From NCBI GenBank assembly GCA_003222535.1, contig QHWJ01000243.1, forward strand, positions 1-53,133: 53,133 nucleotides of DNA, written 5' to 3'. Source of the DNA: Acidobacteriota bacterium (lineage in GTDB: Bacteria > Acidobacteriota > Vicinamibacteria > Vicinamibacterales > CAVVIG01). The translations under genes and the position numbers were made by a program. Below the pieces are notes generated by a model. It worked only from the letters and a program-made list of their open reading frames with translations. It made no database searches and was not told the DNA's origin. Positions 33,607 to 46,816 of this stretch are shown here, in pieces; within the stretch, counting starts at the first letter, position 1, and every line of letters starts with the position of its first letter.

Positions 33607-33614
33607 TGCGGACT

Positions 33615-33700
33615 TTCAGGCCTTCGGCGCCTCGCTCGTCCTGAGCTCGTCGAAGGACGAGCCGCCGAGATGGCTCGTGGTTCGACAGGCTCACCACAAG
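33615..33700. repeat. Palindromic repeat of the CGTCCTGAGC...TTCGACAGGCTCACC type
   Basis: ctcgtcct (33635-33642) pairs with aggacgag (33654-33661) around gagctcgtcga. This is followed by ggttcgacaggctcaccac. Similar palindromes are widespread in GC-rich bacterial genomes (from memory). It lies between the convergent M16 gene and tyrA (gap 33607-33746) and may end transcription of both. Confidence 0.55.
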
Positions 33701-33746
33701 CGTGTGCCTGACGCGCCCGCTCCCTTCTCGCGAGCTCGATGTTGCG

Positions 33747-34697
33747 TTACTTCGTGAGAGTGGCTCGCCAGCGCGCCGCGTCGGTGAAGACGTCGGCGAG
33801 CCGCCTGCCGTCCGGGAGATCCCGCCGCAGATCCTGGAGCAGCGCGATCAGCCTGTCGAGCGCAGCGCCGATTTCGTCGGCGTTGGTCGCCGCGATGTCC
33901 GTCCAGATGTCGGGCGGGCTGGAGGCGAGTCGGGTTGTATCGGCCAGGCCGCGGCCGGACAGCGTCAGACCCTCACGCCCCACCGCGTCACCGACCACGT
34001 GCATCAACGCGCTGACGGTAAGTTGCGGGAGGTGACTCAGGAAGGCGAGCAGCCGGTCGTGCGCGACAGCGTCGATCAGGCGCGGCTCCGCGCCAAGCGC
34101 GCGCGTGAAATCGGTCAGTTTGTCGAGCGCGGCGGCATCGCCCGGCTGATATCCTCGCGCTCCAGGAGGGGATTTCGGGTCCTGCGCTCCGTCGTTCGGC
34201 GCAGACGCCGGCGTCAGCAGCCAGGGCCGTCCCGCGAACAGATCGGGCCGCGCATATTCGAGTCCGCCGTGCGCCGCGCCCGCCAGTGGATGGCCGCCGA
34301 TGAACGTGAATCGGGGAGGCAGCAAGCCTGCGGCGGCTACGATGTCCCGCTTCGTGCTCCCGGTGTCGGTGACGACTGCGGGCTGCCGGACGTTGTCGTC
34401 CAGCTCCGCCAGCAACGCGATGTTCTGCTTCACCGGCGCCGCGAGGATGACGAGGTCCGCCTCGGCGAGGACGATGAGGTCTTCGGCGGCCACGTCAATC
34501 GCGTGCATCCGCATGGCCGTCTCGAGAACGTCCTTGTTGTCGACCCCGATGACCAGCGCGCCCGGCCACAGCTCGCGCGCCTTCAGCGCGAGAGATCCAC
34601 CGATGAGGCCCAGGCCTACGATCCCGATCTTCTCGAAGAGAGGCCGCTGGCCTTCGCGCGGGCGGCCTGGTTGGATCACGGGGAGCTGCGTAGACAT
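33747..34697 (-). CDS. tyrA: Prephenate dehydrogenase (TyrA family)
   Basis: TyrA converts prephenate or arogenate toward tyrosine. The 316-residue protein has an N-terminal Rossmann motif (KIGIVGLGLIGGSLALKARE), NAD-binding loops (VTDTGSTKRDIVAAAG) and a helical dimer domain. The substrate motif is FIGGHPLAGAAHGGLEYARP, and LLAFLSHLPQLTVSALMHVV fits the catalytic-domain His. No ACT domain is seen, so no internal feedback domain. It is the last gene of the aromatic supra-operon, 104 bases after aroF across a word tract. Cofactor choice (NAD or NADP) cannot be judged here. Confidence 0.93.
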   Translation of the reverse strand: MSTQLPVIQPGRPREGQRPLFEKIGIVGLGLIGGSLALKARELWPGALVIGVDNKDVLETAMRMHAIDVAAEDLIVLAEADLVILAAPVKQNIALLAELDDNVRQPAVVTDTGSTKRDIVAAAGLLPPRFTFIGGHPLAGAAHGGLEYARPDLFAGRPWLLTPASAPNDGAQDPKSPPGARGYQPGDAAALDKLTDFTRALGAEPRLIDAVAHDRLLAFLSHLPQLTVSALMHVVGDAVGREGLTLSGRGLADTTRLASSPPDIWTDIAATNADEIGAALDRLIALLQDLRRDLPDGRRLADVFTDAARWRATLTK

Positions 34698-34797
34698 GGC
34701 TGGGGGCTAATGGCATATGGTCGATGGTTGATGGTCGATGGCCCGGCTGTCCATCAGCCATAGCCATCAGCCATGAGCCATCAGCCATGACGCCGCC
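34698..34797. repeat. Word tract (GGCTGATGGC/GCCATCAGCC) between aroF and tyrA
   Basis: tggtcgatggttgatggtcg on one side and ccatcagccatagccatcag on the other form a long imperfect inverted repeat of reiterated GATGG/CCATC words. On the operon strand it follows the aroF stop by about 14 bases. A shorter relative follows the pepA stop (18713-18755). Confidence 0.7.
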
Positions 34798-34801
34798 GGG
34801 T

Positions 34802-35881
34802 TCACGACCCCCACCCCCGGCGGGTCACAGGTTCCAGGCAAATACTTCGTCCGATCGCCGGCGCGATGATTCGCAACTCCGCCATGAGGCGATCGAACTG
34901 CGCCGGGTACATCGACTGCGCGCCGTCACTCAACGCGTGATCGGGATCGCAGTGAACCTCGATGATCAGGCCGTCGGCGCCGGCGGCGACGGCGGCACGC
35001 GCCATCGGGGCCACCATGTCGCGGCGTCCGGCGCCGTGGCTCGGATCCGCCACAATCGGCAGGTGGCTCAGCTTCTTGACGACCGGGATCGCCGAGATGT
35101 CGAACGTGTTGCGCGTCGCCGTCTCGAAGGTGCGAATCCCGCGCTCGCAGAGGATGACGTCGTTGTTGCCGCCGCTCAGCACGTATTCCGCCGACAGCAG
35201 CCACTCTTCGATTGTCGCGGAGATACCGCGCTTCACGAGCACCGGCTTACGGGCGTGCCCGAGCTCGCGCAGCAGGGTGAAGTTCTGCATGTTGCGCGCG
35301 CCGACCTGGAAGATGTCGCAGTACTCGTCGATCACCTCGATCTGGCTGAGGTCCATCACCTCGGTGACGAGCTTCAGGTTCTCGGCGTTGGCGGCGTCGC
35401 GCAGCAGCCGCAGCCCTTCTTCGCCAAGCCCCTGGAAGCTGTAAGGCGAGCTGCGCGGCTTGAACGCCCCGCCGCGGAGGATCTTCGCGCCTGCGCGCCG
35501 CACGGCGGCGGCCGCCGCCCGCACCTGCGGCTCGCTCTCCGCCGAGCAGGGGCCGGCCATGACGATCACTTCGTCGCCGCCGATCCGCGCATCGCCGGCG
35601 CTGACCACGGTGCCTTCCGGTTTGAACGTCCGGCTGGCGAGCTTGTACGGCTCCGAAATGCGCAGGACCTCGTGTACGCCGTCGAGCAGCTCGAGGATGC
35701 CCTTGTCCGGGTGGCCCTGCCCCACCGCGCCGAGGACCGTCCGCGTCACGCCGGTCGATCGATGCACGTCCATCCCCATCTCGACGAGACGGGCGACGAC
35801 CTGCTCGATCTGGGATTCGGTGGCCCGTTCTTCCATTACTACGACCATGGCTTCAGTTGCCTCCAGCACCTGTTCCGTCAT
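34802..35881 (-). CDS. aroF: 3-deoxy-7-phosphoheptulonate synthase, type I-beta with N-terminal regulatory domain
   Basis: This enzyme joins phosphoenolpyruvate and erythrose 4-phosphate to start the shikimate pathway. The first ~70 residues ([40 protein letters not shown]) match the ferredoxin-like regulatory domain found in Thermotoga-type DAHP synthases, where Tyr or Phe bind. The catalytic part has [63 protein letters not shown] and [13 protein letters not shown], a complete active site. ATG 35881 is one base after the chorismate mutase stop; internal Met at codon 12 is an alternative. Confidence 0.95.
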
Positions 35882-35882
35882 G

Positions 35883-36188
35883 TTACGTGCCGCCCGCGCC
35901 CGTTGATTTCTCGTCGCCGTCCATGAGCCGCCGCTCGAGCCGCCGCGCTTCGTCGATGATGCGCTCGAACAGCCGCGCGATCGCGTCCGGGCCGAGCGGC
36001 CCTTCCGCCGCGATGCCGCGCACGTGCGCGAGCACCTGCTTCTCGCGCTCGGGCTGATAGACCTCGATCCCCTGGGCCTTCTTCAATTTGCCGATCTCGC
36101 ACGCGACCCGCGCGCGCTCGTTCAGCAACCGGACCAGTACTTCATCCACCCGATCGATGTCGTCTCGCAGCTCGTCAAGCGTGGGCAT
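35883..36188 (-). CDS. aroQ: Chorismate mutase (AroQ type)
   Basis: A 101-residue, all-helical AroQ-class mutase that rearranges chorismate to prephenate for Phe/Tyr. The N-terminal helix [20 protein letters not shown] then [20 protein letters not shown] carries the expected Arg and Lys; the C-terminal helix is [20 protein letters not shown]. It overlaps the end of trpA by 14 bases and ends one base before aroF, so the three are tightly coupled. Being free-standing rather than fused to aroF, it may associate with it. Confidence 0.92.
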
Positions 36189-36984
36189 TGAGCGCTGACG
36201 CCCCCCTCAGCCATTGCACGTAGTGCTCGACACGCGTAATCAGATCCGGCCTCCGGCCGCCCTCGGCAATGACCGACACCAGCGCGCTCCCGACGACCGC
36301 CGCGTCGGCGTACGCACAGACCTCTGCCACATGCTCGGGACGTGAGATGCCGAACCCCAGGGCAATCGGCATCGCCGAATGCGCGCGGATGCGGCCGACG
36401 AGCGCTTCCGCGCCCGATGCGACCCGTGCCCGCGCACCGGTCACGCCCAGCCGGGAAATCCCGTACAGAAATCCGCTCCCCAATTCGGCCGCTCTTCGCA
36501 GACGCGAGTCGGTCGTCGTCGGGCTCAACAGGAAAATGGTGTCGATCCCCGCGCTCGCCAGCGTTTCGCGGAAACCACCTGCCTCTTCGATCGGCAGATC
36601 GAGCGCCAGGACGCCGTCCACGCCGGCACCGGCCGCCTGTCGCGCAAAGGCATCCAACCCGAGGCGCAGCAGCGGGTTCGCGTAACTGAAGACGACGATG
36701 GGCGCCAGAATCCGAGGGCGAAGCTTCTCGATCATCGACAATGCGGCGCGAAGGCTCCCGCCGGCGGCCAGCGCGCGCTCCGAGGCGCGCTGAATGACGG
36801 GGCCATCGGCGAGCGGATCCGAGAACGGAACCCCGACTTCGAGGATGTCGGCGCCCGCGCGATCGAGCGCCATCAGGATCTCTGCCGATCGAGGCAGATC
36901 CGGATCGCCGGCGGTCGTGTACGTCACGAGCCCGGGCCGCGCCTCCGATCGAATCCGCGCGAACGCGCCGGCGATCCGACTCAC
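36175..36984 (-). CDS. trpA: Tryptophan synthase alpha chain
   Basis: TrpA splits indole-3-glycerol phosphate to release indole to the beta subunit. In the 269-residue protein the catalytic Glu is in ILEVGVPFSDPLADGPVIQR (with the Asp), the loop region reads VDGVLALDLPIEEAGG, and the phosphate site includes ALGFGISRPEHVAEV. The start ATG at 36984 lies after a 165-bp repeat-containing gap from trpB. Its 3' end overlaps chorismate mutase. The N-terminal MSRIAGAFARIRSEARPGLV is typical. Confidence 0.96.
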   Translation of the reverse strand: MSRIAGAFARIRSEARPGLVTYTTAGDPDLPRSAEILMALDRAGADILEVGVPFSDPLADGPVIQRASERALAAGGSLRAALSMIEKLRPRILAPIVVFSYANPLLRLGLDAFARQAAGAGVDGVLALDLPIEEAGGFRETLASAGIDTIFLLSPTTTDSRLRRAAELGSGFLYGISRLGVTGARARVASGAEALVGRIRAHSAMPIALGFGISRPEHVAEVCAYADAAVVGSALVSVIAEGGRRPDLITRVEHYVQWLRGASALNAHA

Positions 36985-37006
36985 AAGACGTCTCCGTCCT
37001 CGTCAG

Positions 37007-37130
37007 GTAGGGCGATCCTTTCAGGGTCGCCGAGGCGAGCCTGCCGCCTTCGCGCCCGTGGCGCTTCGGCGAGCCTCGCCGTCGCTCGGGAGCCTTGTAA
37101 CCGAGCGGAGGCGGGAAAGGCTCGGCCTAC
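37007..37130. repeat. Expanded GTAGGGCGA...GGCCTAC repeat between trpB and trpA
   Basis: Starts gtagggcgatcc and ends ggctcggcctac, with inner gggtcgcc, ggcgagcc and gcgggaaaggctcgg words. It is an enlarged copy of the unit at 26250-26301 with more hairpins. It sits inside the operon between two genes whose products work in one complex. Confidence 0.65.
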
Positions 37131-37149
37131 ATCCGCCAGCAAGCCGACA

Positions 37150-38340
37150 TCATGCTTTGGCAAGCTGCTTCTCCACTGTGTGGACGTCCTTATCCCCGCG
37201 GCCCGACAGGTTCACCAGCAGGATCGCCGACGGCCCGAGCTCCCCGGCGATCCGCTGCGCGTACGCGATGGCGTGGGCCGATTCGAGCGCCGGCAGAATA
37301 CCCTCGAGCCGGGCCAGCGTCTGAAACGCCGCCAGCGCCTCGCCATCTGTCACATACGCGTACTCGGCGCGGCCCATCGCGCGCAGCCACGCGTGCTCCG
37401 GCCCGACCGCCGCGTAGTCCAGCCCGGCTGAAATCGAGTGTGTCGGCTCGATGTTGCCGTTGTCGTCCTGCAGCACGAACGTCCGCGTTCCCTGCAGGAC
37501 GCCGGTGCTGCCGCCCGCGAATCGCGCGGCATGGCGGCCGCGGAGGATCTCCTCGCCGCCGGCCTCGACGCCGATCAGCCGCACGCCGCGATCCTCCATG
37601 AACGCATCGAACACGCCCATGGCGTTGCTGCCTCCGCCCACGCACGCGACGATCGCCGTGGGCAGCCGACCGGTGAGCTCGACAATCTGCCCGCGCGCTT
37701 CACGTCCGATCACCGACTGGAGCTCGCGCACCATCAGGGGGTACGGGTGCGGGCCGAGGACCGATCCGAGGAGGTAGTAGGTGTCGGAGACGTTGGTCAC
37801 CCAGTCGCGCATCGCCTCGTTGATCGCGTCCTTCAGCGTCCGGCTGCCGGCGTCGACGCGGCAGACCTCGGCGCCGAGGAGGCGCATGCGGAACACGTTG
37901 AGCGCCTGCCGATCCATGTCTTCCGCGCCCATATAGACATGACACTCGAGCCCGAGCAGGGCGCAGGCGGTCGCGCTCGCGACCCCGTGCTGGCCCGCGC
38001 CGGTTTCGGCGACGATGCGGCGCTTGCCCATGCGGGCGGCGAGCAGCGCCTGCCCCAGCGCGTTGTTGATCTTGTGCGCGCCGGTGTGCGTCAGGTCTTC
38101 GCGCTTCAGAAAGATCCGCGCGCCGCCCGCCGCTTCCGTCAGGCGCGCCGCCTCGTAGACCGGCGTCGGTCTGCCGACGTAGTGCTTGAGCAGGCGGTCC
38201 AGTTCTGCGCCAAATGCCGGATCGTCGCGCACCTCGAAATACGCGCGCTCGAGCGCTTCGACCGGCTCGACGAGCGTCTCCGGCACGTAACGCCCGCCGA
38301 ATTCGCCGAAATAGCCGCGCCTGTCAGGATCGCGCCTCAT
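37150..38340 (-). CDS. trpB: Tryptophan synthase beta chain
   Basis: PLP-dependent enzyme joining indole and serine to tryptophan. The 396-residue protein has [20 protein letters not shown] at the N-terminus, the PLP lysine in [18 protein letters not shown], the Glu in [20 protein letters not shown] and the phosphate loop [15 protein letters not shown]. The C-terminal [10 protein letters not shown] is normal. Start ATG lies one base after the trpF stop, so the two are coupled. Confidence 0.97.
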
Positions 38341-38341
38341 C

Positions 38342-38989
38342 TCACAACCTCGCGCTCGAGCGGAGACGCTCGCGCTCGACGGCCGCCGTCCTCAAGGCTT
38401 CGAACAGCGCGCGCACGCGCCGGTGATCCTTGACGCCGGGCGTCCGTTCCACGCCGGAGGAGACGTCGATGCCGAACGGGCGCACCTTGGCGACCGCTTC
38501 CATCACGTTGTCCGGCGTCAGCCCGCCCGCCAGGAGAATCTTCCGCTGCGCCGCCACCGCGCTCGCGCCGGTCCAATCGATGGTCCGGCCGGTTCCGCCG
38601 CGTTTCACCGGATCGTGCACGTCGAGCAGCAGGGTCGTGCTCGCCGGCCACGCGCCGACGCGGGGGTCGTCCACCGGCCCGAACGGCACGGCCTTGATGA
38701 CCGGGCTCGACACCGCCGCCGCGTACTCGGGCGTCTCGTCACCATGGAGCTGCACCGCGCCGAGCCGCAGGAGGCTCGCGACGGCGTTCACGTACTGCAG
38801 CGGCTGATTCACGAACACGCCGACCGCAGTCACGAACGGGGGCAGCGTCGACGCGATGGCCCGTGCCCGGTACGGATCGATGAACCGCGGGCTCTCGGGC
38901 CAGAACACGAACCCGATCGCGCCGGCGCCCGCCTCCGCCGCCGCCTCCGCATCGTCGGCCCGCGTGATGCCGCAGATTTTTACGAACAT
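38342..38989 (-). CDS. trpF: Phosphoribosylanthranilate isomerase
   Basis: TrpF is a (beta/alpha)8 barrel that isomerises phosphoribosylanthranilate. The 215-residue protein starts [20 protein letters not shown] with the catalytic Cys in KICGITR. The motif [15 protein letters not shown] is followed by the Asp in [20 protein letters not shown], and by [16 protein letters not shown] and [17 protein letters not shown]. It is separated from trpC by 112 bp of word tract, then abuts trpB. Confidence 0.95.
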
Positions 38990-38994
38990 GGCCC

Positions 38995-39170
38995 CAGCGT
39001 TACAGAAACACAGCTTTTACCAACCACGAAAGTCACGAAAGCACGAAACGCACGAAGAAGATCTGACTTCGCGTTGTTGTGTTTTCGTGGTCTGACGTTT
39101 CTCATGTTCGACCCCTGATCGCTTTTTGCTCTGTGTCCTTTGTCACCTCTGTGTCCTTGGTGCCGAGGGC
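38995..39170. repeat. Word tracts CACGAAAG/TTTCGTG and TGTGTCCTTTG at trpC-trpF junction
   Basis: cacgaaagtcacgaaagcac and cgaaacgcacgaagaag (39023-39061) fill the trpC-trpF gap. ctgtgtcctttgtcacctct and gtgtccttgg (39131-39160) lie inside the last codons of trpC. The first word is CTTTCGTG on the operon strand. These look like the same class of local word reiteration as at other junctions, here with two different words. Confidence 0.65.
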
Positions 39171-40013
39171 CGCCGAGGCGAGAAGGCTCTCGAGCGCCGA
39201 GCCAGGATCTGCGGCAGTCATGAAAGCCTCCCCGATCAGGAACGCGCGGTATCCAAGATTCCGCAGGCGCACGAGATCCTCCGAGGTTCGCAGCCCGCTT
39301 TCGCTGACCGCGATCACGTCGGCCGGCATTCCTGCAATCAGCTCGTCCGAGGCGTGCAAGTCGACCTCGAGGGTGCGCAGACTCCGGTTGTTGACGCCGA
39401 TGATCCGCCCGCCGGCATCGACCGCAATCGCGAGCTCCCGCGCATCGTGGACCTCGACGAGCACGTCCAGTCCATACCGGCGCGCATGATCGTGGAGGAC
39501 CTTCAGCTCCGCCGGCCGAAGCGCCGCGACGATGAGAAGCACCGCATCGGCTCCGGCCGTCTTTGCTTCGAGCAGTTGGTACTCCGACACGATGAAATCC
39601 TTGCGGAGGAGCGGCACATCGACCGCCGCGCGCACCGCCTTCACGTGCTCGAGTGCGCCGTCGAAGAACGTCGGCTCCGTGAGGATCGAAATGGCCGCCG
39701 CCCCGGCGGCGGCATAACCGGTCGCGATCGCCACCGGGTCGTACTCCGCGCGCAGCACCCCACGCGACGGCGATCGGCGTTTGCACTCGGCGATCACGGT
39801 GATGCGGCCGGCGCGCGCCAGGGCCGCGTGGAAACGACCGGCCCTTGATGCCATGCCGGCCGCCCGCTCCTTCAGCACCGCCAGCGGTTCAGCCGCCTGG
39901 CGCACCTCGACGATCCGCCGCGTCGCGGCAATGATCGTCTCCAGCAGATCCGCGTCATGCGATCGCGGATGGCGGCCTGCGGTTTGCGGATTGCGCACGA
40001 CGGATCCGGTCAC
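39102..40013 (-). CDS. trpC: Indole-3-glycerol phosphate synthase
   Basis: TrpC closes the indole ring. The 303-residue protein has the expected barrel motifs: VIAECKRRSPSRGVLRAEYD (catalytic Lys), VPLLRKDFIVSEYQLLEAKT (Lys), DVLVEVHDARELAIAVDAGG, IIGVNNRSLRTLEVDLHASD, VIAVSESGLRTSEDLVRLR and GYRAFLIGEAFM. The ATG at 40013 overlaps the trpD stop (ATGA). Its first ~18 residues come from low-complexity DNA, and the homologous core starts near DADLLETIIAATRRIVEVRQ. At the C-terminus the residues GTKDTEVTKDTEQK are encoded by a word tract, an extension beyond the normal end. Confidence 0.95.
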   Translation of the reverse strand: MTGSVVRNPQTAGRHPRSHDADLLETIIAATRRIVEVRQAAEPLAVLKERAAGMASRAGRFHAALARAGRITVIAECKRRSPSRGVLRAEYDPVAIATGYAAAGAAAISILTEPTFFDGALEHVKAVRAAVDVPLLRKDFIVSEYQLLEAKTAGADAVLLIVAALRPAELKVLHDHARRYGLDVLVEVHDARELAIAVDAGGRIIGVNNRSLRTLEVDLHASDELIAGMPADVIAVSESGLRTSEDLVRLRNLGYRAFLIGEAFMTAADPGSALESLLASAALGTKDTEVTKDTEQKAIRGRT

Positions 40014-41047
40014 GCCGACGCTCCGGCGGCAGCTTCCCCGGCGGTCGAGATGGAGACGAGTTGCGCCAGCGTCTTCTTCGCGTCGCCGCGATCGATCGCG
40101 CGCAACGCCTTGAGAATCCCTTCATCGACCGACGACGCCGCGCCGGCGACGAAGAGCGCCGCGCCGGCGTTGAGCAGCACGACGTCGCGGGCGGGGCCGC
40201 GCGTGCCGTCGAGAATCCCCTCGATGATCCGCGCGTTCTCGCGCGCGTCGCCGCCCTGCAGCGAGCCCGCAGGCGCTTTCGGCAGCCCGACGTCGGCCGG
40301 ATGCAGGTAGAAGGTGTTGACCGCGCCGTCGCGGCACTCCGAGATCTTCGTGTACCCGGTGGTCGTCATCTCGTCGATCCCGTCGGCCCCGTGCACCACC
40401 CACGCGCGTTTGGCTCCCAGGAGCATGAGGGCTCGCGCCAGCAGCTCGGTGAGCTCCGGCCGCGGGACGCCGACGAGCTGCCGTGTCGCGGCGGCCGGGT
40501 TGGTCAGCGGCCCGAGGAGGTTGAACGCCGTGCGCACGCCGAGCTCGCGACGCACGGGCGCCGCGTGGCGCATCGACGGATGAAAGGTCGGCGCGAAGAA
40601 GAATCCGATGCCGGCGTCCGCGAGGCACCGCTCGACCACGGCCGGTGGCGCGCTGACTCGTACGCCCAGTGCCTCGTAGACGTCGGCGCCGCCCGCCTTG
40701 CTGGAGGCGGAGCGGTTGCCGTGCTTGGCGACCCGCACGCCGGCGGCCGCGACGACCAGCGCCGCGCACGACGAGATATTGAACGTCCCTGCGCGATCGC
40801 CACCCGTGCCACAGGTGTCGAACACGTCGTCGTACCGCCTGGACAGCCGGACGGCGTGCGCGCGCATCGCGCGCGCGAGGCCGACGATCTCGACGGGCCG
40901 CTCGCCTTTCATCGCCAGGCCGATGAGGAGACCGGCGATGTGCGCGGGCGCGGCGCGGCCTTCCATCACCTCGGCCATGGCTGCGGACGCTTCGTCGGTC
41001 GTCAGGTCCTCGAGTCGCGTCAGCTTCTCGATGAGTTCTTGAAACAT
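40010..41047 (-). CDS. trpD: Anthranilate phosphoribosyltransferase
   Basis: TrpD attaches the phosphoribosyl group from PRPP to anthranilate. The 345-residue protein has an N-terminal helical domain (IEKLTRLEDLTTDEASAAMA), the glycine-rich PRPP loop DVFDTCGTGGDRAGTFNISS, AKHGNRSASSKAGGADVYEA, FNLLGPLTNPAAATRQLVGV and the anthranilate-site segment FAPTFHPSMRHAAPVRRELG. Length is normal. It ends in ATGA with trpC; the gap from trpG is 123 bp with palindromic repeats. Confidence 0.96.
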   Translation of the reverse strand: MFQELIEKLTRLEDLTTDEASAAMAEVMEGRAAPAHIAGLLIGLAMKGERPVEIVGLARAMRAHAVRLSRRYDDVFDTCGTGGDRAGTFNISSCAALVVAAAGVRVAKHGNRSASSKAGGADVYEALGVRVSAPPAVVERCLADAGIGFFFAPTFHPSMRHAAPVRRELGVRTAFNLLGPLTNPAAATRQLVGVPRPELTELLARALMLLGAKRAWVVHGADGIDEMTTTGYTKISECRDGAVNTFYLHPADVGLPKAPAGSLQGGDARENARIIEGILDGTRGPARDVVLLNAGAALFVAGAASSVDEGILKALRAIDRGDAKKTLAQLVSISTAGEAAAGASA

Positions 41048-41059
41048 CGCTCACCACCG

Positions 41060-41082
41060 GTCCGGCTGAAGCCGGACGCTAC
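41060..41082. repeat. Palindromic repeat GTAGCGTCCGGCTTCAGCCGGAC in trpG-trpD gap
   Basis: On the minus strand it reads gtagcgtccggct-tcagccggac with a 7-bp stem, a third copy of the family at 10507-10531 and 16756-16780. Two partial copies (ccggacgcc and ccggacac, about 41137-41160) follow in the same 123-bp gap, so the gap is nearly all repeat. Confidence 0.7.
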
Positions 41083-41170
41083 ATCCCAGGCGATCCACAA
41101 GCCCGCCTGAAAAGCCTGCTCTGAAACCGGACGCCACGCGCGATCTGAAAACCGGACACACCCGAGGCGA

Positions 41171-41746
41171 TTACGAAAGCCGATCTTCGAGAAAATTCTG
41201 CAGGATATGTCGCCCTTCGCCCGTCAGAATCGATTCGGGATGAAACTGCACTCCGTGGACCGGCCAGCTACGGTGACGCAGCCCCATGATGCTGCCGTCT
41301 TCACGCGTCCGCGCCGCAACCTCGAGCTCGCCCGGCAGCCCTTCTTCCGCCACGACAAGCGAGTGGTACCGCGACGCGACGAACGGCCCCGCAATGCCCC
41401 TGAATACGCCGCGGCCGTCGTGCTCGATCGTCGACGTCTTGCCGTGCATCGGCACGCCCGCCCGCACGACCGCCCCACCGAAGACTGCGCCAATCGCCTG
41501 ATGACCGAGGCAGACGCCGAGAATCGGCGTCGTCTGTCCGAGCCGGCGGATGACGCTCATCGTCACACCCGCGTGCTCCGGCCGGCCGGGCCCCGGAGAA
41601 ATCACGACGCGATCGGGTTTGGCCGTCTCGATGACGTCGAGCGTCACCACGTCGTTGCGCATCACCCGCACCTCCGCCCCGAGCTCGCCCAGGTACTGCA
41701 CGAGGTTGTAGGTGAAGGAGTCGTAGTTGTCGATGACTAGAACCAT
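41171..41746 (-). CDS. trpG: Anthranilate synthase component II (glutamine amidotransferase)
   Basis: The GATase subunit supplies ammonia from glutamine to TrpE. The 191-residue protein opens MVLVIDNYDSFTYNLVQYLG. It has the oxyanion segment VVISPGPGRPEHAG, the nucleophile Cys in ILGVCLGHQAIGAVFGG, and the His-Glu pair in VHGVQFHPESILTGEG. No fused TrpD. It may also serve p-aminobenzoate synthesis, as no pabA is visible here. The gap from trpE is 100 bp of word tract. Confidence 0.96.
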   Translation of the reverse strand: MVLVIDNYDSFTYNLVQYLGELGAEVRVMRNDVVTLDVIETAKPDRVVISPGPGRPEHAGVTMSVIRRLGQTTPILGVCLGHQAIGAVFGGAVVRAGVPMHGKTSTIEHDGRGVFRGIAGPFVASRYHSLVVAEEGLPGELEVAARTREDGSIMGLRHRSWPVHGVQFHPESILTGEGRHILQNFLEDRLS

Positions 41747-41751
41747 GTCGA

Positions 41752-41850
41752 GACATTGCAGGATTGCAGAATTGCAGGATTGCAGGAAGGAAAGGCAAAG
41801 GGATCCTTCCCTTCCTGCAATTCTGCAATCCTGCCATTCTGCAATTTCAT
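41752..41850. repeat. Inverted word tract (GCAGGATTGCAGAATT) between trpE and trpG
   Basis: caggattgcagaattgcagg and its continuation pair with cctgcaattctgcaatcctg across a short centre (near 41800-41812, caaagggatcctt). The operon mRNA would form a hairpin with arms of over 40 bases. On the operon strand the tract starts directly after the trpE TGA stop, with aattgcag. Nearest words are read in frame in nothing real. Confidence 0.75.
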
Positions 41851-43328
41851 AATCCAGCCTGCGCGAGCTCGAGCGCTCGCAGCAGCGCCTGGGCTTTGTC
41901 CTTCGTCTCTTCGTATTCCGCCGCAGGATTCGAATCCATGACGATGCCGGCGCCAGCCTGCACGTAGGCCTTTCCGTTCGACATGATCACCGTCCGAATC
42001 GCGATGCAGAAGTCGAGGTTGCCGGCGAAATCGAGGTATCCGACGGCACCCGCGTAGACGCCGCGGCCCGATGGCTCGAGCTCCCTGATGATCTGCATTG
42101 CGCGGACCTTCGGCGCGCCCGAGACGGTGCCGGCGGGGAAACACGACACGAGCGCGTCGAGCCGGTCGCGATCGTCGGCGAGCTTCCCCTCCACGATTGA
42201 GGTCAGGTGCATCACGTGCGAAAAGCGCTCGAGGCCCATGAACTGCGGCACGCGCACCGATCCGTACGCGCAGACGCGACCGACGTCGTTGCGCCCGAGG
42301 TCAACGAGCATGACGTGTTCGGCGCGCTCCTTCTCGTTGCGCTTCAGCTCCTCGGCCAGCCGCATGTCCTCCTCGTCGTTCCGTCCGCGCCGGCGCGTGC
42401 CGGCAATCGGGTGTGTCTCCACGCGCGACCCCTCGACCCGGACCAGCATCTCCGGCGACGAGCCGACAAGCGAGACGCCGCCCACGCGGACGAAATACAT
42501 GTACGGCGACGGGTTCACGTGGCGAAGGGCGCGATAGACCGTGAACGGATCGGCCGACACCTCGGCCTCGAAGCGCTGCGACAACACGACCTGATAGATG
42601 TCGCCCGCGGCGATGTGTTCCTTGGCCGCGCGGACCCGCTCCTCGAAGCGCTCCCGCGTGTGGTTCGACCTGAACTCGAGGCCGTCGGCCGCCTCGCGCG
42701 GCGTCCGCGACAGGTTGCGCTCGAGCTCGCGCTCGAGGAATTGAATCTTCGCGCACGCGAACTGGTACAGCGACTCCAGATCCTCGTCCGGCGTGATGCG
42801 CGCATTGGCGATGATCAGGATGCGATGCTGGACGTGATCGAATGCGAGAACCGTGTCGAACAGCATGAAGCCGGCGTTGTCGGCGCCGTCGTCAGACGAT
42901 CCGAGGTCGCCGAGCACCGGCTCGAACCACGACGCCGCCCCGTACCCGAGATAGCCGACTGCGCCGCCGGTGAAGCGCGGCAGCTCGGGAACGAACGGCG
43001 ACCGGAAGTCGGCCATGAGCCGCCGCAGCGTGTCGACGAAGGGCTGATCGCTCCCGGTGGTCACCCCGCCGCGATCCATCGTCGTCTTGCCGTCATGTGA
43101 CCGCAGGATCAGGAACGGGTCCTTGCCGAGAAACGAATAGCGCCCCACGTGCTCGCCGCCTTCGACGCTCTCCAGCAGGAAGGCGTAGTCGGCATGCTCG
43201 GCGATCTTCAGGAAGGCCGACACCGGCGTGAGGAGGTCGGCGACGATCTCCTTGCACACGGGGACGAACGTCCCGCGTCGCGCCAGCTCCTTGAATTCAT
43301 CGAACGACGTGATTCTCATTGCGCGCAA
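41847..43328 (-). CDS. trpE: Anthranilate synthase component I
   Basis: TrpE turns chorismate into anthranilate. The 493-residue protein has the tryptophan-feedback motif LLES in YAFLLESVEGGEHVGRYSF. The catalytic domain has VSADPFTVYRALRHVNPSPY, SLVGSSPEMLVRVEGSRVET, HPIAGTRRRGRNDEEDMRLA, ERAEHVMLVDLGRNDVGRVC, FPAGTVSGAPKVRAMQIIRE and AVGYLDFAGNLDFCIAIRTV. ATG 43328 overlaps the aroE 3' end by about 32 bases; Met at codon 4 is an alternative. The protein should be inhibited by tryptophan. Confidence 0.96.
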   Translation of the reverse strand: MRAMRITSFDEFKELARRGTFVPVCKEIVADLLTPVSAFLKIAEHADYAFLLESVEGGEHVGRYSFLGKDPFLILRSHDGKTTMDRGGVTTGSDQPFVDTLRRLMADFRSPFVPELPRFTGGAVGYLGYGAASWFEPVLGDLGSSDDGADNAGFMLFDTVLAFDHVQHRILIIANARITPDEDLESLYQFACAKIQFLERELERNLSRTPREAADGLEFRSNHTRERFEERVRAAKEHIAAGDIYQVVLSQRFEAEVSADPFTVYRALRHVNPSPYMYFVRVGGVSLVGSSPEMLVRVEGSRVETHPIAGTRRRGRNDEEDMRLAEELKRNEKERAEHVMLVDLGRNDVGRVCAYGSVRVPQFMGLERFSHVMHLTSIVEGKLADDRDRLDALVSCFPAGTVSGAPKVRAMQIIRELEPSGRGVYAGAVGYLDFAGNLDFCIAIRTVIMSNGKAYVQAGAGIVMDSNPAAEYEETKDKAQALLRALELAQAGL

Positions 43329-44045
43329 ACTCCGCGAACCGCGTCAGAGCGGCCTCTCTCATCACGCCCGCCCGAGGCGTCCTGCCGGTCCACCGCTGAA
43401 ACTGATCGCGGGCCTGGGCGGCGAGCATCTCGAGGCCGCCGATGGTCTGGCAGCCCACGGCTGCCGCCTCGCGCAGCAGCCGGGTGCCCGGCGGGTTGTA
43501 GACCAGATCGTAGACGCAGCGCCCCGTGATCTGATCCGCGGGAATCGGAGTCTCGTCCACGCGCGGATGCATGCCGATCGGCGTGCAGTTCACCAGCAGG
43601 TCCCAGCTTCCCGGCTCGGGCGGCCACGGACCGACCTCGATCGACGCCAGCGCGGCGACTTGCCTGGCCTGCTCGCGGTTCCGCGCGTGCAGTCGCGTCG
43701 AGCAGCCGCTCGAAGCCAGGGCCACGGTGACGGCCCTCGCCGCACCCCCGGCCCCGAGCACGGCCGCGCGCACACCGGCGAGCGCCATGCAATCCCGAAG
43801 CGGCTCGAGGAATCCGCCTGCGTCGGTGTTCGCGCCGATCCAACGCCGGTCCTCGACCGAAATTGTGTTGATCGCGCCGATGCGGCGGGCAACCGGATCG
43901 GCTTCGTCCACGTAATCGAGCATCGACACTTTGTGCGGAATCGTGACGCTCGCGCCGCTGATGCCGATCGCGCGGCCGAATGTCTGGAAATCGGCGGCGC
44001 TCGCCGCCGGAAACGGCAGATACACGGCATCGGCGCGCGCGGCTC
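43297..44045 (-). pseudogene. aroE: Shikimate dehydrogenase (AroE) part of an AroD-AroE fusion, 5' part missing and out of frame
   Basis: From about 44045 the frame encodes AroE without its first ~25-30 residues: ARADAVYLPFPAASAADFQT, then GRAIGISGASVTIPHKVSML (with the catalytic-Lys motif TIPHK), the Asp in WIGANTDAGGFLEPLRDCMA, the NADP loop AVLGAGGAARAVTVAL, LLVNCTPIGMHP and DLVYNPPGTRLLREAAAVGC. The segment that normally holds the shikimate-binding Ser-x-Ser (the HS.SP motif) is absent, and the frame differs from the aroD part upstream. As read, the fusion protein would not be made. Either the assembly dropped about 80 bases or the gene is damaged. Confidence 0.75.
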
Positions 44046-44669
44046 CTCGAGCAACGACTGCGCGTCCAGTTGCCCGACTTCGCGCACAGCCCCTGCGTAG
44101 GTCCAGGTCGAGCCGAAGCGGCCGGCGAGGATGCGCGTGGCCACGCCGTACTCTCCCATCCCGATGAGCACGAGACGGCTCGGCCCGCTCCGGAGGCCGA
44201 GATCGAGGAGCGGGACGCAGTCGCTCAGGCACGTCATCGCCGCGGCGATCTTAATCACCTCGGCGCCAGTCGATTGCATGGCATGGACGCGAGCGGCGAG
44301 ATCCGCCGGCACGCCATCAAACGCATGGGACGACAGCACGATCCGCCGTCCCCCGGCCCCGGCGATCACATCGTCGAAGCGCGCGCGCCATTCGATGTCG
44401 ACCCACTCCGCGCCGAGCGATAGCGCCTCGGTCAGGATCCGCCGGCGGTCTTCTTCTGACCCCGTGAAGCCGCCGCCTTCCCACGCGGGACGGCAGGTCA
44501 CGATCACCGGGCGACGCCGGCCGGCCAGGGCGCCGGCGACGCTCGGGTCGCTCACAGAGTCGAGCCGCAGCTCGATCAGATCTGCCTCGACGACCGCGTC
44601 CCGCTTCCGGCGCAGCTCGGCCATCGTGGCGGCAGTAACCGTGACGCAAAGGAGCGGTCTAGACACCAT
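43590..44669 (-). CDS. aroD: 3-dehydroquinate dehydratase type I (AroD) part of an AroD-AroE fusion, frameshifted tail
   Basis: The first ~205 residues are a complete type I dehydroquinase, which removes water via a Schiff base: VVEADLIELRLDSVSDPSVA, the Glu in AEWVDIEWRARFDDVI, the His in RRIVLSSHAFDGVP, the Lys in TGAEVIKIAAAMTCLSDC, and GMGEYGVATRILAGRFGSTW. After EVGQLDAQSLLEEPRA (near 44045) the frame leaves the homologous sequence and continues as Arg/Ser-rich nonsense to 43590; the AroE domain continues in another frame. AroD-AroE fusions are known in plants and Chlamydia. Start ATG 44669 is 14 bases after the attenuator terminator. First gene of the supra-operon. Confidence 0.88.
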   Translation of the reverse strand: MVSRPLLCVTVTAATMAELRRKRDAVVEADLIELRLDSVSDPSVAGALAGRRRPVIVTCRPAWEGGGFTGSEEDRRRILTEALSLGAEWVDIEWRARFDDVIAGAGGRRIVLSSHAFDGVPADLAARVHAMQSTGAEVIKIAAAMTCLSDCVPLLDLGLRSGPSRLVLIGMGEYGVATRILAGRFGSTWTYAGAVREVGQLDAQSLLEEPRAPMPCICRFRRRAPPISRHSAARSASAARASRFRTKCRCSITWTKPIRLPAASARSTQFRSRTGVGSARTPTQADSSSRFGIAWRSPVCARPCSGPGVRRGPSPWPWLRAAARRDCTRGTASRPGKSPRWRRSRSVRGRPSREAGTCW

Positions 44670-44683
44670 CCACAGTCCTGAAT

Positions 44684-44799
44684 AAAAAAAGCCCCTTCAA
44701 CCGTTCGGCTGAAGAGGCTCGTAAACTCGTTCGCGCTGGGCGGCTTACGCCTGGGCGGATGCCTCTTCAGTCGGGCCCCGATACGACCACCACGCCGAC
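44684..44799 (-). terminator. Transcription attenuator with alternative terminator/antiterminator structures
   Basis: Terminator: AGCCTCTTCAGCC (44719-44707) pairs with GGTTGAAGGGGCT (44702-44690) around GAAC, giving 13 pairs including two G-U, followed by seven T (44690-44684). Antiterminator: CTGAAGAGGC (44770-44761) is perfectly complementary over 10 bases to GCCTCTTCAG (44718-44709), the terminator's left arm, so the two are mutually exclusive. Upstream, GTCGG (44799-44795) can pair with CCGAC (44774-44770), a 1:2-type hairpin that encloses the Trp codons. It therefore has the parts of an E. coli-style trp attenuator. Confidence 0.88.
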
Positions 44800-44855
44800 G
44801 CGGACACGCCCGCGGCTCGGCTGCGATCGAGGGACGGGGCAAAGGACTGCGGCAT
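44745..44855 (-). CDS. trpL: Tryptophan-rich leader peptide of the aromatic operon
   Basis: ATG 44855 to TAA 44745 encodes 36 residues: MPQSFAPSLDRSRAAGVSAS followed by AWWSYRGPTEEASAQA. Residues 22-23 are consecutive Trp codons (44792-44787), followed by Ser-Tyr. The Trp codons lie about 16 bases before the antiterminator strand (44770-44761), a position where a stalled ribosome would free the antiterminator. No clear ribosome site; predicted transcription start is near 44861, so the leader may be translated as an almost leaderless mRNA. GTG at codon 17 is a possible shorter start that still contains WW. Confidence 0.85.
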   Translation of the reverse strand: MPQSFAPSLDRSRAAGVSASAWWSYRGPTEEASAQA

Positions 44856-44867
44856 CAGAGCGGGGGG

Positions 44868-44897
44868 ACGATAGCAGACACCGGCGACTCCTGTCAA
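44868..44897 (-). promoter_or_regulatory. Promoter of the aromatic amino-acid supra-operon
   Basis: TTGACA (44897-44892) and TATCGT (44873-44868) are separated by 18 bp on the minus strand. The -35 is consensus. Predicted start near 44861, a few bases before the leader peptide ATG. I see no obvious operator palindrome for a Trp repressor in it. Confidence 0.75.
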
Positions 44898-44916
44898 CAC
44901 GATCGGCCATTTCTCC

Positions 44917-44945
44917 TTGACCAGCAAGCACTTCTCCCGTAGATT
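44917..44945 (+). promoter_or_regulatory. Promoter of the S55 peptidase-like gene
   Basis: TTGACC (44917-44922) and TAGATT (44940-44945) are separated by 17 bp. Predicted start near 44952, only about five bases before the ATG at 44957, so the transcript would be nearly leaderless. It is divergent from the supra-operon promoter with about 20 bp between the two -35 boxes. Confidence 0.65.
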
Positions 44946-44956
44946 GGATTGAAATC

Positions 44957-46816
44957 ATGCCAATACGCCGGTTTGTGCTGAACGCGTTTGTGGCCCTTCT
45001 CGGCGTGTCGGTCCTGCCCGTCATCCCCTACGGGGCCACGACCCAAATGGGCGTCAACGAAATCCGGCCGGGAATGGTCGGCATCGGCCGGACGGTTTTC
45101 GATGGCACGCACGTCGAAGAATTCAGGGCGAACATCCTCGGCGTGCTCGAGAACGTCATCGGGACGCACCGCAATCTCATCCTCGCCAGGCTCGAAGGCG
45201 GGCCGCTCGCCAACACCGGCGTCATCGCCGGAATGAGCGGCAGCCCCGTCTATGTCGACGGCCGCCTCATCGGCGCCGTCTCGTACGCGCTTGGCAGCTT
45301 TTCCAAAGAACCGATCGCCGGCATCACGCCGATCGCCGAGATGACGGATTCGACGAGTTTCAGCGACACACGGCCGACGGGCGCGCGGGTCCACATCGAC
45401 TACCCGCTCACCCGCGACAACCTCACTGCCGCGTTTCGCAAGGCGCTCAACTGGAATCGTCCGTTTGCCGACCGTCCAGACGAGACGCACCTGGCCGGTG
45501 TGAGCGCGGTGGCGGGGCTCGGGGGCAGCCAGCTCGGCACGCTGCTCCGCCCCATCGCGACGCCGCTCGTCATGTCCGGCTTCGAACCGGAGCTCGCCGA
45601 CGTATTCGGCAGCGCCTTCCGCGAGCAGGGCTTCGTGCCGAGCGGCGGCGGCGCTGCGGGATTCCGCACCGGGGAAGCGCCATTTGAAGGTCCGCTCAAG
45701 CCGGGCGACGCGGTCGGCGTGATGCTGGTGAGCGGCGACCTGCAACTGGGCGGCACCGGCACGGTGACGCACATCGACGGCGACCGCGTCTATGCCTTCG
45801 GTCACCCGATGTACAACCTGGGACCCACTGAATTCCCGATGACGCGCGCGTACGTCTACACCGTGCTGCCGAGCCTGTTCTCCTCGATGAAGCTGTCGAG
45901 CACGGGCGAAATCATCGGCACGTTCCTTCAGGACCGCGCGACCGCGATTGCCGGCCGTCTCGGACACGGACCGCGCATGATTCCGGTGACGATCTCGCTC
46001 CAATCCGGCCGCGCGCCGAACCAGACATTCCACTTCGGCGTCGTGAACGATCAGCTCTTCGGACCGTTGATGACCTACGCGAGCATCCTGAACACGCTCG
46101 GATCGTACGAGCGGCAGTACGGCTCGGCGACCTTCGGCGTGCGCGGATCCGCAACGGTCAGGAACCACGACGCCATCGCGTTCAACAACCTGTTCTCGGG
46201 CGATCAGGCGTCGATGGGCGCGGCCGCGTACGTCGTGGCGCCCATCACGTATTTGATGGGCAATGATTACGAGAAGGTGGATCTCGAAAGCGTGAGCGTG
46301 ACGTTCTCCTCGACCGAAGAGCCCAGGACGGCGACGCTCGAGCGCGTGTGGCTCGACGATCCGCGTCCTCGCGCCGGCCGGACCGTCCCGCTCAAGATCC
46401 TGTTCCGGACGTATCGCGGCGAAGAAGTCGTCCGCACGCTGCCGCTCGATATCCCGGCGAACGCCAGCGGAACGTTGTCGCTGCTCGTGTCGGACGGCGC
46501 CCGCCTCGGCCTGACCGAGCAGCGCGAGGCGCGCCTCCCCCAGCCGCGCAGCGTGGACCAGATGATCAAGGCGCTCAACAAGGCGCGTCGCAACAACACG
46601 CTGTACATCAAGCTGCTCGGCTCGGACGCCGGCGCCGTCGTGAACGGCGAGCTGCTGTCGTCGCTGCCGCCGTCGGTGCTCGGCGTGCTCGAGGGCGATC
46701 GGAACGGCGGCAACTTCAATCCGCTCCACAGCGCGACGGTCGCCCAGTGGGAATTGCCCACCGAACACGCCGTCGCGGGATCCCGGACGCTGACGATCAC
46801 CGTCTCGCCGAACTAG
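44957..46816 (+). CDS. SpoIVB-type (S55) peptidase domain protein, secreted
   Basis: A 619-residue exported protein. A signal segment (FVLNAFVALLGVSVLPVIPY) is followed by an S55-like domain with MGVNEIRPGMVGIGRTVFDG and the nucleophile motif TGVIAGMSGSPVYVDGRLIG, as in SpoIVB. Further motifs are VYAFGHPMYNLGPTEFPMTR (GHP-type motif) and LSSTGEIIGTFLQDRATAI. The C-terminal ~200 residues look beta-rich (VWLDDPRPRAGRTVPLKILF) without known motifs. In non-sporulating bacteria its function is unknown; a periplasmic serine protease is likely. It is followed after 22 bases by the propeller gene, probably one transcript. Confidence 0.82.
   Translation: MPIRRFVLNAFVALLGVSVLPVIPYGATTQMGVNEIRPGMVGIGRTVFDGTHVEEFRANILGVLENVIGTHRNLILARLEGGPLANTGVIAGMSGSPVYVDGRLIGAVSYALGSFSKEPIAGITPIAEMTDSTSFSDTRPTGARVHIDYPLTRDNLTAAFRKALNWNRPFADRPDETHLAGVSAVAGLGGSQLGTLLRPIATPLVMSGFEPELADVFGSAFREQGFVPSGGGAAGFRTGEAPFEGPLKPGDAVGVMLVSGDLQLGGTGTVTHIDGDRVYAFGHPMYNLGPTEFPMTRAYVYTVLPSLFSSMKLSSTGEIIGTFLQDRATAIAGRLGHGPRMIPVTISLQSGRAPNQTFHFGVVNDQLFGPLMTYASILNTLGSYERQYGSATFGVRGSATVRNHDAIAFNNLFSGDQASMGAAAYVVAPITYLMGNDYEKVDLESVSVTFSSTEEPRTATLERVWLDDPRPRAGRTVPLKILFRTYRGEEVVRTLPLDIPANASGTLSLLVSDGARLGLTEQREARLPQPRSVDQMIKALNKARRNNTLYIKLLGSDAGAVVNGELLSSLPPSVLGVLEGDRNGGNFNPLHSATVAQWELPTEHAVAGSRTLTITVSPN

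Follow-up and report, generated by a model that had tools for sequence, protein, structure and literature searches.

In the trpL leader of Escherichia coli, tandem tryptophan codons are combined with mutually exclusive antiterminator and terminator structures, and both traits are shared by the element described here from the Acidobacteriota, a phylum common in soil. The trp attenuators described in Actinobacteria (Corynebacterium, Streptomyces) consist of a leader peptide with double or triple UGG codons and a GC-rich terminator (PMC1262725). In Sinorhizobium meliloti, the RNA begins with the ATG of trpL, and trpE(G) expression is reported to be regulated exclusively by attenuation (PMC7298713). 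A putative attenuator precedes an aro-trp supraoperon in Desulfovibrio vulgaris (PMC1173090). Almost none of the attenuators predicted in Acidobacteriota had an assigned function in 2010 (PMC2965389), and the available portion of another study mentions Acidobacteria only for leader-gene spacing (PMC4833913). Literature searches for attenuators in Acidobacteria, Solibacter and Vicinamibacter, conducted mostly without subscription papers, returned no description of this type, which fits the original prediction, whose author, without searching, was aware of none in the phylum.

The element lies in a 53,133-nucleotide stretch of DNA from a member of the Vicinamibacterales; the window refers to this whole stretch, and all operon and attenuator coordinates are on its minus strand (Table 1). 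The anatomy, conservation, covariation and geometry of the element and the conservation of its operon were established by sequence analysis and computation. The element is read with high confidence as a ribosome-mediated transcription attenuator of the trpL kind, and it very probably opens the operon when charged tRNA(Trp), perhaps also charged tRNA(Tyr), is short.

The promoter TTGACA-18-TATCGT, the 36-codon leader with tandem Trp codons followed by Ser-Tyr and the 10-base antiterminator had all been predicted, and these parts were confirmed at their coordinates. The leader reads MPQSFAPSLDRSRAAGVSASAWWSYRGPTEEASAQA, and CTGAAGAGGC (44770-44761) is a perfect 10-base complement of GCCTCTTCAG (44718-44709). 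The leader stop codon lies 13 nt past region 2. The terminator had been described as 13 pairs followed by seven Ts, 14 bases ahead of the first gene; the Ts and the 14-base gap to the aroD ATG at 44669 hold, whereas the stem (44720-44689) has 14 pairs once G-U pairs and those reaching into the T run are included. Its folding energy is -23.6 kcal/mol (44722-44685), and the RNA from 44870 to 44670 folds more stably than 200 of 200 dinucleotide shuffles (z -3.4).

Table 1. Features of the attenuator and the aromatic operon in the window.
Feature	Position	Strand	Basis and remarks
-35 element TTGACA	44892..44897	-	10/12 consensus matches together with its -10
-10 element TATCGT	44868..44873	-	18-nt spacer from -35; TG precedes -10; sigma-70-type promoter
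Leader ORF, 36 codons + TAA	44745..44855	-	ATG 44855, TAA 44747-44745; relatives have corresponding open frames
Tandem regulatory Trp codons TGG TGG (predicted role)	44787..44792	-	Trp cluster in 49/50 AroD-chosen loci
Tyr codon adjoining Trp block, possible second regulatory codon	44781..44783	-	Comparative Tyr counts
Antiterminator 5' arm (region 2), inside leader ORF	44761..44770	-	Pairing and covariation
Shared arm (region 3): antiterminator 3' arm and terminator 5' arm	44709..44718	-	Pairing counts
Intrinsic terminator stem-loop (regions 3:4)	44689..44720	-	Scan, folding, conservation in relatives
Terminator seven-T run	44684..44690	-	Sequence
aroD part (type I 3-dehydroquinase) of aroDE fusion, first gene of operon	44043..44669	-	Pfam PF01487, 1.6e-39
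aroE part (shikimate dehydrogenase)	43297..44042	-	PF08501, profile positions 22-83 only; N-terminal portion missing, out of frame
trpE	41847..43328	-	Pfam
trpG	41171..41746	-	Pfam
trpD	40010..41047	-	Pfam
trpC	39102..40013	-	Pfam
trpF	38342..38989	-	Pfam
trpB	37150..38340	-	Named by eye from sequence, without Pfam; same place in 20/20 relatives
trpA	36175..36984	-	Named by eye from sequence, without Pfam; same place in 20/20 relatives
Chorismate mutase (type II)	35883..36188	-	PF01817, 5.6e-25
DAHP synthase	34802..35881	-	PF00793, 2.4e-78
tyrA (prephenate dehydrogenase), last gene of operon	33747..34697	-	PF02153, 7.2e-26

A promoter scan of positions 33,500-45,000 found this promoter and one divergent site only; the minus strand showed no other of the same type. 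On the same strand and over the same range, one further, weak terminator-like site lies between trpE and trpG. The single promoter and the run of genes are consistent with one transcription unit, and other promoters could sit in the intergenic gaps of roughly 100-165 bases between some operon genes. Upstream of the operon, a block near GAGAAGTGCTTGnTGGTCAAGGAGAAATGG (44910-44950) is similar across several loci of family f1 and contains a divergent plus-strand promoter, TTGACC-17-TAGATT, for the gene at 44957. The likeness in this block extends beyond the promoter hexamers, which hints at a possible operator.

The gene content of the operon was compared in 20 relatives from 11 families, which were picked for long contigs and read over stretches of up to 16.5 kb. 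All 20 carry aroD, trpE-G-D-C-F-B-A and tyrA in the same order and on the same strand; chorismate mutase was not detected in four of these operons (L230, L237, L238, L244), DAHP synthase in one (L234) and aroE in one (L231). The genome with no detected DAHP synthase gene in its operon (G054, in which L234 corresponds to L034) also holds the one AroD-chosen locus whose leader has a single Trp codon at the site. The predicted control of aroD-aroE, the trp genes, chorismate mutase, DAHP synthase and tyrA agrees with this content, whose order is kept in 20 of 20, with the correction that most relatives have aroD and aroE fused into a single gene (an open frame of 487-565 aa in 48 of 55 AroD-matched relatives) and that the fusion is broken in the window. 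The interruption lies near 44043, where the window lacks about 100 bases found in two relatives and the reading frame changes; the sequence fits a real loss and an assembly fault alike. The entire Trp branch is encoded in the operon, along with chorismate mutase, tyrA and three steps of the common pathway (DAHP synthase, aroD and aroE), so the supply of tryptophan, and perhaps of tyrosine, would set much of aromatic synthesis at once. Genes for several common-pathway steps lie outside it, and the earlier claim that Trp-tRNA charging could set the flux of the entire aromatic pathway is therefore too strong.

Conservation was assessed in loci chosen by a search of 60 genomes with AroD only. Fifty-six genomes matched, giving 57 aroD places, of which 50 loci formed the first set. 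The places left out were in G043, G029, G041, G045 and G051, together with a fragment in G025 and the G000 match on contig C418; the first three were added among later loci, G045 was never added, and G051 and G025 were examined separately. L001 was omitted because it duplicates L002. In 49 of the 50 loci there is an intact short ORF with at least two Trp codons within five, compared with 59 of 1,000 dinucleotide shuffles, and all 50 have a hairpin of the terminator's sequence type. When the 50 loci are aligned, the Trp codons and regions 2, 3 and 4 are all in register.

Region 3 pairs with region 2 or with region 4, not with both. Across the 50 loci, the antiterminator is paired in 456 of 500 cells (37-56% in controls with slid partners) and the terminator in 583 of 598 (36-69%). 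Cells in which both bases changed number eight for the antiterminator, a value reached in 0 of 500 shuffles (mean 2.2), and 18 for the terminator, where likewise 0 of 500 shuffles were as high (mean 4.4); the pair shuffles ignore relatedness, and the covariation counts are therefore strong hints and not probabilities. On this alignment, the antiterminator and terminator pairings are both conserved and covarying. Two further pairings were considered and are not claimed, namely a protector pairing of the Trp codons with a CCACC downstream of the stop codon, paired in 184 of 236 cells, and a local GAGGC:GCC hairpin, paired in 152 of 238.

A covariance model built from the 50 AroD-chosen loci was used to follow the element across the phylum, with a match threshold of E <= 1e-3. 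The model matches 142 of 162 genomes in the order; 50 of these trained the model, and 92 of the other 112 match. In the class, 147 of 193 genomes match, including five of 31 in other orders, all weakly. A phylum-wide search matched 39 of 247 genomes, comprising 24 strong matches, all within the order, and 15 weak ones outside it (E 3.8e-5 to 8.5e-4). Nine more distant AroD relatives from Spirochaetes, Planctomycetes and other groups gave no model match below E 0.1. The element is also carried by Vicinamibacterales and Vicinamibacteraceae MAG contigs, one of which (L185) is labelled Acidimicrobiia.

Ninety-one of the 92 further loci in the order were read, for a total of 141 leaders; the model includes the Trp codons, and only the first 50 loci are therefore unbiased for codons. 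A same-strand aroD begins within 183 nt downstream in 88 of the 91. In L108 and L149 (genomes G107 and G104), the terminator leads straight into trpE without an intervening aroD, and L129 stops at a contig end. The leader precedes aroDE or, in these two loci, trpE, and it therefore belongs to the head of the operon. A Trp cluster is present in 137 of the 141 leaders (the script counted 138, including L164, whose true frame has one Trp), and four leaders have a single Trp at the site (L034, L124, L138 and L164).

The 20 genomes of the order that lack a model match fall into three groups. Ten are cut by contig ends: aroD is cut at its 5' side in G025 and G105, the contig ends within aroE in G178, G097, G189 and G188, and only part of trpE is present in G112, G095, G022 and G111. 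Nine (G019, G115, G146, G154, G006, G161, G162, G184 and G052) show no orthologous aroD or trpE; the AroD and TrpE searches found no aroD and no close trpE, the best TrpE match being a chorismate-binding relative of 36-40% identity. The last, G051, has a full aroD and a YWWW leader ending ARYWWWCTSTAEGAAA with a decayed terminator. Among genomes of the order with a readable operon front, none is without the leader. The comparison with homologues that the original prediction had named as a refuting test did not refute it, as the Trp leader and the paired stems are kept throughout the order.

The spacing of the leader was counted in 140 loci (L164 was left out of the 141). The last Trp codon ends 9-26 nt ahead of region 2 in 131 loci; the stop codon lies 0-14 nt past region 2 in 124 and at or inside the start of region 2 in seven. 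This geometry fits a model in which stalling on the Trp codons frees region 2 and a ribosome at the stop codon masks it.

Folding was modelled for a transcript that stops just past region 3, with an assumed ribosome footprint as a mask. In the window, the computed probability of the antiterminator is 1.00 when the A site holds the first or the second Trp codon, 0.86 when it holds the Tyr codon and 0.00 at the stop codon. Without a ribosome, the antiterminator still forms before region 4 is made (P 0.99), and for this reason the window gives no sign of a strong protector hairpin (1:2) that would bring termination without translation, unlike the textbook E. coli case. Across the 140 loci, the probability is above 0.5 in 93 when the ribosome stalls on the first Trp (35 of the 50 AroD-chosen loci), in 90 with a stall at the last Trp (29 of 50), in 69 without a ribosome (27 of 50) and in none with a ribosome at the stop codon (0 of 50), the last value being partly a result of the assumed mask but also dependent on the positions of the stop codons. 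The computed gain from stalling, 93 or 90 versus 69 of 140, is moderate. Full-length window RNA prefers the terminator in every state (P 0.98-0.99), and the modelled switch must therefore be kinetic. An antiterminator unable to compete in folding would have refuted the original prediction; the folding did not refute it, as the antiterminator forms with a ribosome on the Trp codons before the 3' arm of the terminator is made, but the full-length RNA favours the terminator.

The start of the leader was examined in the full set of loci. A promoter scoring at least 9 is found upstream in 107 of the 141 loci, compared with 14 of 141 mononucleotide-shuffled sequences. Among these 107, the start codon lies at most 12 bases after the end of the -10 element in 42, 13-25 bases after it in 34 and further away in 31, with start codons assigned by rule such that single cases may be wrong. 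A Shine-Dalgarno-like motif between the -10 element and the start codon was found in 12 of the 107. With the start codon near the end of the -10 element in so many loci, many leaders are predicted to be leaderless or nearly so; the 42 relatives with short spacing bear out the observation that the leader ATG is almost at the predicted transcription start.

In the proposed mechanism, RNA polymerase would start at about 44861, as predicted from the -10 element, and the leader ORF would be translated from an ATG a few bases from the 5' end of the RNA. When charged tRNA(Trp) is scarce, the ribosome would halt on the tandem Trp codons and leave region 2 free; region 2 would then capture region 3 upon its transcription, the terminator would be blocked, and the polymerase would continue into aroDE-trpEGDCFBA-CM-DAHPS-tyrA. 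When tryptophan is plentiful, the ribosome would pass region 2 and reach the stop codon; with region 2 masked, regions 3 and 4 would fold into the terminator. The transcription start, translation, stalling and the response to tryptophan are predicted steps, and the classical attenuator interpretation is supported by conservation, covariation, geometry and folding before region 4.

Tryptophan may not be the only amino acid that is read. In a two-amino-acid sensor, the Trp and Tyr codons would both be regulatory, shortage of either amino acid would open the operon, and phenylalanine might be added in family f14; this is a genuine possibility that falls somewhat short of an even chance. Of the 141 leaders, 124 have a Tyr codon between positions -2 and +6 counted from the first Trp, compared with 24 of 141 in the control window of codons -12 to -4, although the leaders are related, so the 124 cases are not independent events, and the Tyr count for L164 rests on a wrongly assigned frame. 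Tyr beside the Trp block is found in members of 14 of 15 families, whereas family f5 has none at the site (0 of 4). It occurs on either side of the block (30 at -1, 94 at +2 or +3), and both Tyr codons are in use within seven codons from the first Trp (TAT 77, TAC 46). A single Tyr codon may stall the ribosome little. In the window, the folding model gives a high antiterminator probability for a stall at Tyr, and a Tyr input would make sense given that all operons read contain tyrA. Most f14 leaders are WFWFIYF-like or WWWFFYF, and Phe is frequent in f14 (7 of 7, control 0) and f8 (20 of 25, control 4), but it shows no overall enrichment (48 versus 62 in the control window). Counting against the dual reading, Tyr or Phe is also found in some of the Trp-rich short ORFs that precede trpE in other classes. 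A second signal from the Tyr codon after the Trp pair, as the original prediction suggested, is plausible: the comparative enrichment favours it, and the sensing itself is still a matter of interpretation. The wider proposal, that an order-wide attenuator reads tryptophan and tyrosine (phenylalanine in some families) from one near-leaderless peptide and sets the Trp branch, much of the Tyr branch and shikimate entry as one unit, is offered tentatively, as slightly more apt to be wrong than right.

The terminator is the best-conserved piece of the element and the only one that RNAalifold recovers from the leader alignment, which favours a plain insulating terminator or a conserved small RNA with an incidental Trp ORF. 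This explanation is insufficient because the Trp codons, the open frame, the antiterminator pairing and the position of the stop codon are conserved together; the terminator also sits between the promoter and the first gene, aroDE or (L108, L149) trpE, and the explanation is considered highly unlikely. TRAP, the TrpR repressor and T-box leaders control trp genes in other bacteria, but such protein- or tRNA-binding control has a negligible likelihood here, with TRAP (PF02081), TrpR (PF01371) and T-box (RF00230) each matched in 0 of 60 genomes while positive-control genomes matched (the T-box search used stricter filters, by which weak matches can be lost), and with no Rfam family at gathering score in the window or the leader. 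Two lower-scoring Rfam candidates, BcKCsr2 (full-length, 15.3 bits against a cut-off of 40) and ctRNA, were rejected as chance on the basis of low scores and broken pairs, many of them in BcKCsr2. The leader matched nothing in a plasmid collection.

Candidate leader peptides were also found elsewhere in the phylum. Nine of the 15 weak matches outside the order were read. Three of the nine (L174, L177 and L178) were judged to be chance. In four loci from another Acidobacteriota family (L170, L171, L172 and L176), MTRPAILLLLVLVLVLVTQGAN or a close variant and a terminator lie at the model match; the genes that follow, named by eye, resemble those for branched-chain aminotransferase and acetolactate synthase. 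This is an ilv-type leader, different from the Trp leader. The remaining two loci, L173 and L175, belong to other families and are Trp leaders of other lineages: a WWW leader (MHADRYLWWWRSRC) precedes an aroD-like gene, a WWWW leader precedes trpE, and a terminator accompanies both. Trp-rich short ORFs also precede trpE outside the order in L213, L218 and L221, in L214 and L220, and in L206, L215 and L224, and those of the first two groups recur between related genomes of other families. A scan for such ORFs before trpE reported them in 13 of 21 loci outside the order but also in four of nine within it, although trpE there lies inside the operon; the scan is therefore loose, and the 13 of 21 includes chance. 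Trp leaders probably extend beyond this order. Another element was seen in the window's own genome on contig C185 (L245), where a short ORF rich in Val, Ile and Leu (MRPAMLPGPVRSLVVVGVAIVVLRATFIASPSSSG; leader 1141-1248) and a terminator at about 1276-1308 precede pheA, with acetolactate synthase-like and ketol-acid reductoisomerase-like genes, named by eye, further downstream. The same stretch is present in L246, and the element is likely an ilv-type attenuator.

These results place classical leader-peptide attenuation firmly in the Acidobacteriota and name a single switch shared by the Trp branch and by genes of the Tyr branch and the common pathway. The covariance model and the 141 aligned leaders form a ready comparative set, and the element allows a direct test of whether two amino acids can be read by a single leader peptide. 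If the dual reading is true, one joint aromatic control would stand where model bacteria control Trp, Tyr and Phe separately.

Compared with trpL of E. coli, the element differs in that no TrpR match was found in the 60 genomes, no clear protector hairpin is seen, and region 2 lies inside the ORF, ahead of the stop codon. The Actinobacteria trp attenuators likewise combine a leader containing Trp codons with a classical attenuator; they lie upstream of trp operons or trpS, whereas the element here precedes aroDE and an operon with DAHP synthase and tyrA (PMC1262725). The accessible part of that description does not mention Tyr codons, and the likeness drawn here is one of architecture (PMC1262725). 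The S. meliloti trpL also has Trp codons in a leader ORF at the 5' end of the transcript; it controls trpE(G) only, and the start codon here is a few bases from the predicted start site (PMC7298713). The D. vulgaris attenuator belongs to another phylum and precedes a different set of genes, and the portion of the source available gives no leader peptide or conservation test (PMC1173090). As far as the searched literature shows, the mechanism is a known one, and the novelty lies in the lineage, in how much the operon covers and in the Tyr codons.
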